From Gammaproteobacteria bacterium (GTDB taxonomy: Bacteria > Pseudomonadota > Gammaproteobacteria > Pseudomonadales > Pseudohongiellaceae), in NCBI GenBank assembly GCA_030682575.1, contig JAUXNX010000003.1:1-64000 (forward strand): a stretch of 64,000 nucleotides of DNA, written 5' to 3'. This document shows, in pieces, positions 53,027 through 57,292 of this stretch (positions are counted from its first letter, which is position 1; every line of letters begins with the position of its first letter). The position numbers and the translations under genes were made by a program. The notes below the pieces were generated by a model. It was not told the origin of the DNA, ran no database searches, and was given only the letters and a program-made list of their open reading frames with translations.

Positions 53027-54451
53027 TCATATTTCGCGCCAAAATGAAGCCTTGCGGCCATGCACTCGGCGTAATTCCGAAACATAATCGTCGCCGTTCA
53101 TAAGCGCGTGGTAGTTCGGAATTTTGGTACCCAATTCAGCGAGACGCTTGTAGTAGCGCACAGCATGCCCATAGGCTGTGCTGCGACCGGCGTTGAGTAT
53201 GTCTTCGAGCAGTACGCGATAGTAAATCACTGCAGCCAGGTAGTGCTCGCTATTGGCAAAACTGCTCGCCCATTGGCTCAATGTGCCGTAGAAAACCTTC
53301 GTCAGTTTATCCGCGTGATCGAGCACTTCTTGCGCCGCTTGATCCGAGACTCCCAAGGCAATCAGCGTCGCAATGGATATCTCCAGATCACTTGTCTGCA
53401 GTGCCCTGCTGACGGCAGCATGCTGCACCTGTGCTTTCTCCTGCTCGGGCAAAACCTGAAGCAACGCCTGCAAATTCTCGAAGCCAGGAGTCACGTCGTA
53501 AACTGCCCGCCGCAAGTCTATCAGTTCATCATGACGACCCAGCATTGCCAGTGTCGCATCAAGCAAGCGCAATCGATCAGCCTCGAACCGACTGTGCCAC
53601 TCACCATCAAGCCACCTCAATGCCGCTTCACCGTCTCCAACCGCCAGACAGAACTCGATGATGCTCTGCTTCTGCAGCTCATTCGGTTGTGGTGAACGCA
53701 ACAGATATGATCTCTCATAGAGCTCGACATCTTTCAACGCTTGCGCAACTGCAGCCATTCCCAACGAGGCGGTCATCAGCTTTCGATTGTAAGGTTCTTC
53801 AAGATCGTCCTTCAAAGCACGTCTCGATTCACCTTCAAAACGCCAGGCGAGCTGTCTCAACTCCTCCTCGCTCAGCAAACTCGTCGATTGCTGAATCAGT
53901 GTATCCCACATTCCATATGGATTATTCAGATGTCGCGTGTATAACTCGGTGGGCCATTCAGTGCGGGCATTGTCCGCTTGCTGTTCCCGCCAGCGACTGG
54001 CCGCTTGCAACCAAAGGTGCAGGCCTTGGCGATAACTGTCACCGACCGCCCCTCCGGAATCGTCAACACGTTCGAACACCTTTTGATGAGTGGCCATGAA
54101 ATCATCTGCCGCGACAAACGCAAGCTGGGGGCTGCTGCTCAGAAGCAGCTCAATATCCCGCACCAGCGCATTCAACGACTTGCTGAAATCAAAACTTTCC
54201 CCGTAAGAAATGAAGCGGCTGCCTCGTTTGAGCGACTGTATGCGCTTCTTGAGTTGCTTTGCCAATGCAACGGGGTTCTCGCGCAACAACTGGCTCTCGA
54301 TACAACTGTCAACAGCACTGTCGATGCCGTACACGCCTCTTATGATCTCCTTGAGCCGATCAATCGGCGCGATCCCAAGCAGTTCTTCAAACTCGGATTT
54401 CAAAACATTCTCCTGAAAATCAATTTCCTGTAGATCAATCCACACTGGCAC
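53027..54451 (-). CDS. Uncharacterised helical protein (DUF6880-like by impression)
   Basis: 474 aa; basic segment QLKKRIQSLKRGSRFISYGESFDFSKSLNALVRDIELLL followed by helical repeats. Family name is from memory. Confidence 0.5.
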   Translation of the reverse strand: MPVWIDLQEIDFQENVLKSEFEELLGIAPIDRLKEIIRGVYGIDSAVDSCIESQLLRENPVALAKQLKKRIQSLKRGSRFISYGESFDFSKSLNALVRDIELLLSSSPQLAFVAADDFMATHQKVFERVDDSGGAVGDSYRQGLHLWLQAASRWREQQADNARTEWPTELYTRHLNNPYGMWDTLIQQSTSLLSEEELRQLAWRFEGESRRALKDDLEEPYNRKLMTASLGMAAVAQALKDVELYERSYLLRSPQPNELQKQSIIEFCLAVGDGEAALRWLDGEWHSRFEADRLRLLDATLAMLGRHDELIDLRRAVYDVTPGFENLQALLQVLPEQEKAQVQHAAVSRALQTSDLEISIATLIALGVSDQAAQEVLDHADKLTKVFYGTLSQWASSFANSEHYLAAVIYYRVLLEDILNAGRSTAYGHAVRYYKRLAELGTKIPNYHALMNGDDYVSELRRVHGRKASFWREI

Positions 54452-54456
54452 TGCGA

Positions 54457-55569
54457 TCAGCGGTAGGGAACTACACTATTGCTGTCTTCGGTCATGAGTT
54501 GCAGCAGTTTGGTATGCACGAATAATTTCTCCTTGCCGAACTGCTGCTCCTTCATCACCCCGGCTTCCACCAGCTTTTTCAGGTAGACAGACGCGGTTTG
54601 GCGCTGCGCGATGTTCTTCGCGGTGAGCGAAGTTATCCGGCAGTACGGCTGTTCAAAGAGAATTTGCACCAGTTCATGGCTGTAGATTTTCGGGAGACTT
54701 TCCTGCAGATATGCGGTCGTGAATTCGATGAGGCTGCGCACAGCTGCAATCTTGTTACAGGTCCATTGCGACACCTCGGCAACCCCCTGGAGCATATAGA
54801 CAATCCAGTTCTCCCACTCTTCTCGGGAGGTGACGGCTGTCAGCAATCGGTAGTAATCGGTTTTGTTTTGCACAATGTACCGACTGAGATACAGGATCGG
54901 CAGGGAAAGCAGATTCTGCTCAATCAGGTAGAGCACATTCAGTATTCGGCCTGTGCGACCGTTGCCATCGTAGAATGGATGGATTGCCTCGAACTGGTAG
55001 TGGCTGACCGCCATTTTGATCAGCGGATCTATTCCGTCATTGTCATGGAGAAACCGCTCCCAATTGGCGAGCAAATCCCGTATGGCCTTTTCGCCAACCG
55101 GAGGCGTGTAGATTGTCTCACCAGTTTGCTGGTTGCCGATTACGGTGCCCGGTAATTTGCGAATCTCCATATCCGCGCCTTGCAAAGTTGAACACACTTC
55201 GACTGCCGTGGTGGTGCATAGCGGCCGTTGCCTCAACTGCAAGAAGCCTTGATACAGCGCCGTGCGATAGCGCAGTGCTTCCTTGGTGGCCGGGTCGGCG
55301 TGGGTATCCTCCTGAGCGAATTGAAACAGCTTGTCTGTCGTGGTGAAGATGTTCTCGATTTCAGAACTGGCCCTGGCCTCCATCAGAGGCAGCAGGTTAA
55401 TCAACAAACCCTGATTCGGCAGTAACTCGCCCGCCTGCTTCAACTCAGCCAAGGCCGCCCGTGCAGGAATACAGGCTTTGAGGATAGCCACGGAGTCCAA
55501 CACTTCTTGTGCAGGAGGCAAGGGAGGGAGTGCGTTGTAGGGTATCTCAGGGCGCCATGTCATGTTCAT
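54457..55569 (-). CDS. Fic family protein (putative AMPylator)
   Basis: Fic motif HPFYDGNGRTGR; N-terminal inhibitory motif SSEIEN; C-terminal winged-helix-like region. Confidence 0.92.
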   Translation of the reverse strand: MNMTWRPEIPYNALPPLPPAQEVLDSVAILKACIPARAALAELKQAGELLPNQGLLINLLPLMEARASSEIENIFTTTDKLFQFAQEDTHADPATKEALRYRTALYQGFLQLRQRPLCTTTAVEVCSTLQGADMEIRKLPGTVIGNQQTGETIYTPPVGEKAIRDLLANWERFLHDNDGIDPLIKMAVSHYQFEAIHPFYDGNGRTGRILNVLYLIEQNLLSLPILYLSRYIVQNKTDYYRLLTAVTSREEWENWIVYMLQGVAEVSQWTCNKIAAVRSLIEFTTAYLQESLPKIYSHELVQILFEQPYCRITSLTAKNIAQRQTASVYLKKLVEAGVMKEQQFGKEKLFVHTKLLQLMTEDSNSVVPYR

Positions 55570-55935: not shown

Positions 55936-56634
55936 CTACTGATGATTTGGTGGTAATTGTGCCACCTGGTTCCACTGCATCGTGCGACTACGCCAGTGTT
56001 CTTCAATGGCCTGCACAAAATTCTTGTTGACGAACTTGGCGCGCGCCTCGTTCCACTGCTCCGAATCCTGTCGAATGACGATGCCTTCTACCTGCCCGGC
56101 ACGATAGCGACTGGTGGCACTCTCCAGAAATCGCGTGAGTGTGGCCTTGTCGAAGTGACCACGGCCCAACTCCGGCACCTGGGAAAGACCCAGCGTTGTT
56201 GCCAGTTCGTTGCGCCGTGCCACGCTCCAGAATTTTTCCTGCTGTCTGTCGTAGACATCGAACAGCAGAAACCAGTCCGGCAGTGCGTGATAATCAAGAG
56301 AGTGCTGCGCTGCACACCACTCACCGAAGAGAATCAGATCAGGTGTGAGGAAGTCCCTCAGTGCGAAATCGTACTGTCCCAGCCAGGAATTGAGTCGCGA
56401 GAATTGTCCGTTGAAAGGTTGCTCCAGATAGCTGCCGCGATTCTGCGCCTGCAACTGACCGTTATCATCCAGCGAAATGCCGAGATTGGCGCCGTCGAGC
56501 TTCTCCTCGATGATGATCTCGTTCTGCAGCATCTCGGAGACTTCGTGTGCCAGCAGTACCTTGTCGCCACGCGGTTCGCCCTCGCCCAGCCAGATCAGAT
56601 GATGCGTGTGAGGGAAGCGAAAGAATTCAGTCAT
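55936..56634 (-). CDS. ATP-dependent RNA ligase (Rnl2/DRB0094-like)
   Basis: Nucleotidyltransferase motifs: EEKLDGANLGIS (KxDG), LILFGEWCAAQHS (III), DWFLLFDVYDR (IIIa), VEGIVIR (IV), RAKFVNKNF (V). Start at 56634. Confidence 0.85.
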   Translation of the reverse strand: MTEFFRFPHTHHLIWLGEGEPRGDKVLLAHEVSEMLQNEIIIEEKLDGANLGISLDDNGQLQAQNRGSYLEQPFNGQFSRLNSWLGQYDFALRDFLTPDLILFGEWCAAQHSLDYHALPDWFLLFDVYDRQQEKFWSVARRNELATTLGLSQVPELGRGHFDKATLTRFLESATSRYRAGQVEGIVIRQDSEQWNEARAKFVNKNFVQAIEEHWRSRTMQWNQVAQLPPNHQ

Positions 56635-57223
56635 GCTGTTTTTCCTGATCGGTCGTGTGTTCATGGTGGGTGTGCCGGCCGTGGTGCTGGCGCAGCACCT
56701 TTTCCTTGTGTTTGCTGCGCGACCACTCCTCGATAATGGGTTCGAGCGTCAATCCTGTCAGTTTCAGTTCATGCTCCCAGTCGTGCCAGTCCGTATCTCC
56801 GGCAAAAGCCACGGCGCTGGTACCAGGCAGACTCAATGCGGCGACTGCAGCGGCAACCATCTTGCGATCTGCCAGATCGTGAACCGTGCCATCAAGTGGT
56901 TGCGGCACGATGCCGTTGCCATCGGCGTCGTAATCGACTGTCACGATATCCACCAGATCGCTCTCCCATTTGTGTCGAATGACCTGCAGCCCATAGTCAT
57001 TGAAGCCGAGCTTGTGGTGATACTCCTTTTCGATTTCACCTGCTGCATCGAGCACGAGACGGGCATCACTGCGCTCGAATTCCTGCAACCAGCTCAAAAT
57101 GCGCTGCCGCATTTCGTCTTCAGGCGGCGTGGTATCCGTGTGCTGCGGATGCGGGTAAGGCGACGAACTGACCGCGCTGGCAGCGATCAGGACATTGGTA
57201 TCCAGCACATAGCGATCCTTCAT
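56627..57223 (-). CDS. PIN-domain ribonuclease-like protein with His-rich tail
   Basis: N-terminal RYVLDTNVLIAAS, LADRKMVAAAVAALSLPGTSAVAFAGDTDWHDWE; tail HHGRHTHHEHTTDQEKQHD. Overlaps the ligase start by 8 nt. Confidence 0.78.
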   Translation of the reverse strand: MKDRYVLDTNVLIAASAVSSSPYPHPQHTDTTPPEDEMRQRILSWLQEFERSDARLVLDAAGEIEKEYHHKLGFNDYGLQVIRHKWESDLVDIVTVDYDADGNGIVPQPLDGTVHDLADRKMVAAAVAALSLPGTSAVAFAGDTDWHDWEHELKLTGLTLEPIIEEWSRSKHKEKVLRQHHGRHTHHEHTTDQEKQHD

Positions 57224-57292
57224 CAGAACTCCTCGGAGGACACGCCCTCTGTCGGCATCATACTCCGTTGGCCGTGAGGGAACGACCTGACA

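Follow-up and report, generated by a model that had tools for sequence, protein, structure and literature searches.

The window, the whole stretch of 64,000 nucleotides that was analysed, carried two overlapping genes on the minus strand. The upstream gene (56627..57223, from an ATG at 57223-57221 to a TGA at 56629-56627) encoded a PIN-like nuclease of 198 aa related to HEC-03A, as assigned from the ORF, a PADLOC match, a structure model and invariant acidic residues. The downstream gene (55936..56634, from an ATG at 56634-56632 to a stop codon ending at 55936) encoded an ATP-dependent RNA ligase of 232 aa with the nucleotidyltransferase domain only, as assigned from the ORF, Pfam, a structure model and invariant motifs. 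The two genes shared 8 nt, ATGACTGA (56627..56634, minus strand), which held both the PIN stop and the ligase start, and overlaps of 8 or 4 nt recurred in many relatives. A Shine-Dalgarno-like GAGGAG was present ahead of the PIN start at 57229..57234 on the minus strand. Downstream of the pair, on the same strand and after a gap of 366 nt, a SoFic-type Fic gene was identified at 54457..55569 (Pfam Fic; PADLOC SoFic, 9e-120). The initial annotation had placed the pair at 55936-57223 with an 8-nt overlap; the span proved exact, the overlap was confirmed and the motifs that it had listed were found in the ORFs as DTNV, DRK, GDTDWHDWE, EEKLDGAN, FGEW, VEGIVIR and AKFV. The C-terminal tail of the PIN protein (HHGRHTHHEHTTDQEKQHD, window 56627-56690) was His-rich and of low confidence, and similar His-rich tails were found in several relatives of the same genus while the Nitrosomonas PIN proteins had none.

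HEC-03 is the Hma-embedded candidate 03 of PADLOC and consists of a PIN protein (HEC-03A) and a DUF3696 ABC ATPase (HEC-03B). The window PIN matched HEC-03A at 1.4e-6, its plasmid and genome relatives matched at 3e-23 to 3e-24, and the best Pfam result for the window protein was PIN_3 at an E value of 0.15, under the cut-off. Structure models of the PIN protein and the ligase were built from input alignments that contained no rows from plasmid records. The PIN model had a pLDDT of 88, and its best PIN-fold matches in Foldseek were VapC 7vwo (probability 0.90 but E 0.05) and the AF0591 PIN (probability 0.72), which lend moderate support to the predicted PIN fold. Residue conservation is the stronger argument for the putative PIN identity at the sequence level. 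D8, N10, D59, E67, D116, D119, K121, D143 and W146 did not vary among 45 family members, which were partly interdependent, and these include the active-site acidic residues (D8, D59, E67, D116, D119 and D143) on whose conservation the initial annotation had let its reading depend.

The ligase matched the Pfam family RNA_ligase (PF09414) at 6e-37. Its catalytic residues were invariant among 31 relatives, namely K45 of motif I, F103-G104-E105 of motif III, F125-D126 of motif IIIa, E183-G184 of motif IV and K200 of motif V. The structure search with the ligase model gave the Naegleria and T4 Rnl2 RNA ligases as resembling structures and also DNA ligases at weaker scores. The model comprised the nucleotidyltransferase domain alone and the protein ended shortly past motif V, so that the C-terminal domain of full-length T4 Rnl2 was absent from the window ligase in both sequence and model. 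Full-length Rnl2 needs its C-terminal domain. PADLOC had no model for this RNA ligase.

When bacterial and archaeal genomes were scanned with the ligase alone, 41 loci were obtained. The initial annotation had proposed looking for the adjacency in other genomes, and the PIN gene of this family was found directly upstream of the ligase in 38 of the 41 loci, mostly overlapping it by 8 or 4 nt or lying within about 50 nt. Of the three exceptions, L039 had an orphan ligase, L064 held a fragment of the ligase, and in L054 the ligase was beside a different PIN. Chance adjacency was ruled out, as the pairing recurred in several phyla. On plasmids of Azotobacter, Aeromonas, Tistrella and Rhodococcus, a third gene was located immediately upstream of the PIN gene, and its product was an ABC-type (OLD-type) ATPase with a C-terminal DUF3696 domain; the Aeromonas plasmid ATPase matched HEC-03B at 1e-133. 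Three lineages carried the pair without the ATPase: the genus of the window, Pseudohongiella and a Burkholderiales/Aquabacterium group. Most relatives outside these lineages were cassettes of ATPase (HEC-03B), PIN (HEC-03A) and RNA ligase. What could not be seen in the initial annotation is that the pair represents, without its ATPase, an OLD-ABC ATPase, PIN and ligase cassette that occurs in anti-phage contexts. HEC-03B was absent beside the window pair and had no match anywhere in the genome of the window, which ruled out a complete HEC-03 there.

Each of the three proteins was also searched in a 399-genome sample of the phylum. The PIN protein was found in 15 genomes, with ATPase and ligase in 10, with ATPase in four, with ligase in one (the window, which was included by construction) and alone in none. 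All 14 high-scoring ATPases adjoined a PIN gene when gene order was checked, as did all 11 full-length family ligases, and one genome (G007) had a ligase fragment only. ATPase-PIN pairs without the ligase (4 of the 14 in this sample, and one on an Acinetobacter plasmid) indicate that members of the class can do without the ligase.

Several cassettes were located within or beside groups of defence genes. In L115:87-11690 the cassette came after a Ppl gene and another gene that weakly matched pAgo. The ligase gene of this cassette overlapped the gene of a BrxHI helicase of BREX (1440 bits), which was followed by PglZ (2.5e-273). Another cassette (L109) was located between HmaB-like methylase and PLD-helicase genes, a third (L037, from Haliea) had a PLD-helicase downstream, and the ligase-less HEC-03 of the Acinetobacter plasmid was beside methylase and helicase genes. 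In the stretches examined around a subset of the other cassettes, for example those of Nitrosomonas, no obvious defence neighbours were seen. In the window, the SoFic gene was followed downstream by DUF6880 and was the only defence-type neighbour of the pair. These two genes occupied a variable site (window 53027-55569) between yicC and the pair, and relatives had other genes there. The SoFic gene is a neighbour in this site and a defence candidate, not assigned to the pair. In a 2026 survey of BREX loci, pairs of an OLD-ABC ATPase and a PIN RNase were described as suicide effectors that serve as a backup; the word "ligase" is absent from its main text (PMC12839542). In our literature search, the combination of PIN, DUF3696 ATPase and RNA ligase in defence was not described, although PIN-ligase operons may have been mentioned before. 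The ATPase-PIN pairs are already known and the ligase partner appears to be new.

Cut-and-reseal is the best-supported reading of the pair, and its function is throughout what we infer. The initial annotation had suggested such a module or a toxin-repair couple, and conserved adjacency, repeated independent PIN-ligase pairings, invariant catalytic residues and purifying selection speak indirectly for this suggestion, which had missed the larger cassette. We give roughly even credence to the view that the pair derives from a three-gene conflict module and lacks its ATPase, and that PIN would cut an RNA which the ligase would reseal. In the full module, the ATPase would sense infection or the failure of a host defence system and control PIN. 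The RNA then cut by PIN would come from the host and would most likely be tRNA. Two-metal chemistry would leave it with 5'-phosphate and 3'-OH ends, direct substrates that the ligase would reseal with ATP. Leaky or transient cutting would be reversed and the cell would be arrested only upon strong activation, so that an abortive-infection effector would carry its own brake in the form of repair by the ligase. In the lineage of the window, where the ATPase is gone, the translationally coupled ligase would be an enzymatic antidote that mends the product of the toxin instead of binding the toxin. What we infer comprises RNA being the target, the ends left by the cut, its religation in vivo, the sensing role of the ATPase and any part in defence in the organism of the window. 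More tentatively, the operon may be a self-repairing abortive-infection module, in which an RNA cutter and the ligase that directly rejoins the cut RNA would make the block of translation reversible or dependent on a dose threshold, with an RNA-repair toxin-antidote pair in the lineage of the window.

Two-metal nucleases are expected to leave 5'-P/3'-OH ends. The mapping of 5'-OH/3'-P ends proposed in the initial annotation would have to be adapted, since classical ATP-dependent RNA ligases require 5'-P and 3'-OH ends (PMC7824862) and no end-healing enzyme was adjacent to the ligase in the window family. AriB of PARIS, which combines an OLD-ABC ATPase with a TOPRIM nuclease, cuts tRNA with a confirmed 3'-OH (PMC12409363). 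Reports on VapC toxins assign a 5'-OH or leave both end types possible, and the chemistry of PIN toxins is disputed. Related ligases in four loci (L106, L107, L108 and L118) adjoined proteins with HD and AAA_33 (kinase-like) domains, which are presumably end-healing enzymes. A PIN protein in place of such partners would fit a cutter whose products need no healing. These neighbourhoods also bear on a reading that we regard as unlikely, in which the ligase mends RNA broken by invaders or other effectors and is simply a second defence gene that accompanies ATPase-PIN. The HD and AAA_33 associations, which look like general RNA repair, would agree with it, as would the swapping of ligases between cassettes and their absence from some. 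However, family ligases have no accompanying end-healing enzyme, the genes keep a strict order and overlap, and PIN and ligase were retained together after ATPase loss in three lineages.

The presence and absence of the ATPase needed three changes on the ligase tree and on the PIN tree alike, and the nearest ATPase-bearing relatives of the window group were Nitrosomonas cassettes. The simplest reading is that the ATPase was lost three times, the trees being quick searches with several long branches. In the genus of the window, the pair adjoined hrpB, mostly with yicC on the opposite side, and was present in 10 of the 14 sampled genomes. The values of dN/dS within the genus were approximately 0.07-0.2 for both genes (Nei-Gojobori, with synonymous sites near saturation), which indicates that both are maintained as working proteins. 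One metagenome-assembled genome of the genus (L009:1462-2181, the same locus as L031) had an intact PIN beside a ligase interrupted by an in-frame TGA, which may reflect either a genuine pseudogene or faulty assembly. The fixed hrpB-yicC position, the purifying selection and a similarly fixed chromosomal placement in the Burkholderiales group would suit a pair that has ceased to be a conflict system in the three ATPase-less lineages and now matures, splices or circularises one particular RNA of the cell. This was judged quite unlikely, because the pair is dispensable (4 of the 14 genus genomes had no ligase, and in two genomes without the pair the yicC-hrpB interval held other genes), the neighbouring SoFic is a defence candidate and PIN evolves fast, with 60-74% identity within the genus.

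Among 19 divergent cassettes, the distance correlation was 0.93 for PIN-ATPase, 0.36 for PIN-ligase and 0.33 for ligase-ATPase, and the PIN-ATPase correlation exceeded that of PIN-ligase in 99.9% of 1000 resamplings. One genome of the same genus (L036) combined an L030-like PIN with an L033-like ligase, with the switch near the gene junction. In Pseudomonas alcaligenes (L054:3759-6132), genes for an HTH-M78 (RmrA-like) protein, a VapC-like PIN and a ligase of the window family were found in a row, and in L119:1645-6018 an ATPase-PIN pair was followed by a ligase of a separate lineage with 36% identity to the L118 ligase and 26% to that of the window. RNA ligases became linked to PIN genes independently on at least two further occasions. 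ATPase and PIN would form the physical core, with the ligase as an exchangeable and repeatedly recruited part. The weak PIN-ligase co-variation and the recombination suggest that the ligase meets PIN through a shared RNA and not as a binding antitoxin, and it probably acts on cut RNA. A ligase-fold protein that neutralises PIN by contact, in the manner of a type II toxin-antitoxin system with ligation incidental, appears very improbable. Two small overlapping genes with a toxin-like PIN beside its partner would be expected of it, and every sample genome with a PIN also had the ATPase or the ligase, but every catalytic motif of the ligase is invariant, PIN and ligase co-vary weakly, recombinant PIN and ligase combinations persist, and PINs and ligases from lineages that are unrelated or distant are found paired (L054 and L119). 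Only a faint likelihood attaches to a PIN that nicks DNA with a ligase that seals DNA or RNA-DNA nicks, since, although some PIN-superfamily enzymes are DNA nucleases and DNA ligases were among the weaker structure matches, the ligase scored top against RNA ligases by sequence and structure and tRNA is the substrate of AriB and comparable partners of OLD-ABC ATPases.

The pair belongs to a known class of candidate defence systems, as a branch that lacks the ATPase and has an apparently undescribed ligase as partner. It resembles HEC-03 in that the window PIN is homologous to HEC-03A and relatives have HEC-03B directly upstream, some inside defence loci, and differs in the added RNA ligase and in the missing ATPase of the window. 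The BREX backup effectors share the ATPase-PIN pairing and the BREX embedding seen in L115, but with the ligase unmentioned in the main text of their description. PARIS (AriA OLD-ABC ATPase and AriB TOPRIM tRNase) is a works-like analogy only, with an ABC ATPase controlling a metal-dependent ribonuclease; its nuclease is TOPRIM where that of the window is PIN-like, AriAB has no ligase and the window has no ATPase. VapBC also has a small PIN-type nuclease in a two-gene operon, but the partner in the window is an enzyme. Membership of VapBC was ruled out, as the adjacent gene is an RNA ligase and no VapB-like DNA-binding antitoxin is present.

RNA ligases are commonly discussed as opponents of RNA-cutting immunity, as for T4 Rnl1 against PrrC. 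The opposition of phage T4 Pnk/Rnl1 to tRNA cleavage by PrrC/RloC likewise sets RNA ligation against an RNA cut, with cutter and ligase from opposite parties and ends that need healing (PMC3506569). Pnkp1-Rnl-Hen1 and the HD/AAA_33-kinase-linked ligases also place a bacterial ATP-dependent RNA ligase in a small operon, with end-healing partners (PMC4411300) where the window family has a PIN nuclease. If the PIN products are directly ligatable, end-healing enzymes would not be needed, unlike in known bacterial RNA repair operons. A cutter and a ligase in one module would imply that reversal is part of the design of some defences, and the control of leakiness and recovery after infection would become testable. 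The ligase is probably a third component of HEC-03/OLD-ABC-PIN systems, and its gene is a marker by which they can be located, on plasmids as well.

Finally, a phage origin of the pair was rejected, as the phage relatives of the ligase were distant only (<60% identity) and PIN had no match in phage records. One contig from a viral collection (L136:2601-5207) nevertheless carried the full ATPase-PIN-ligase cassette, beside an integrase-like gene.
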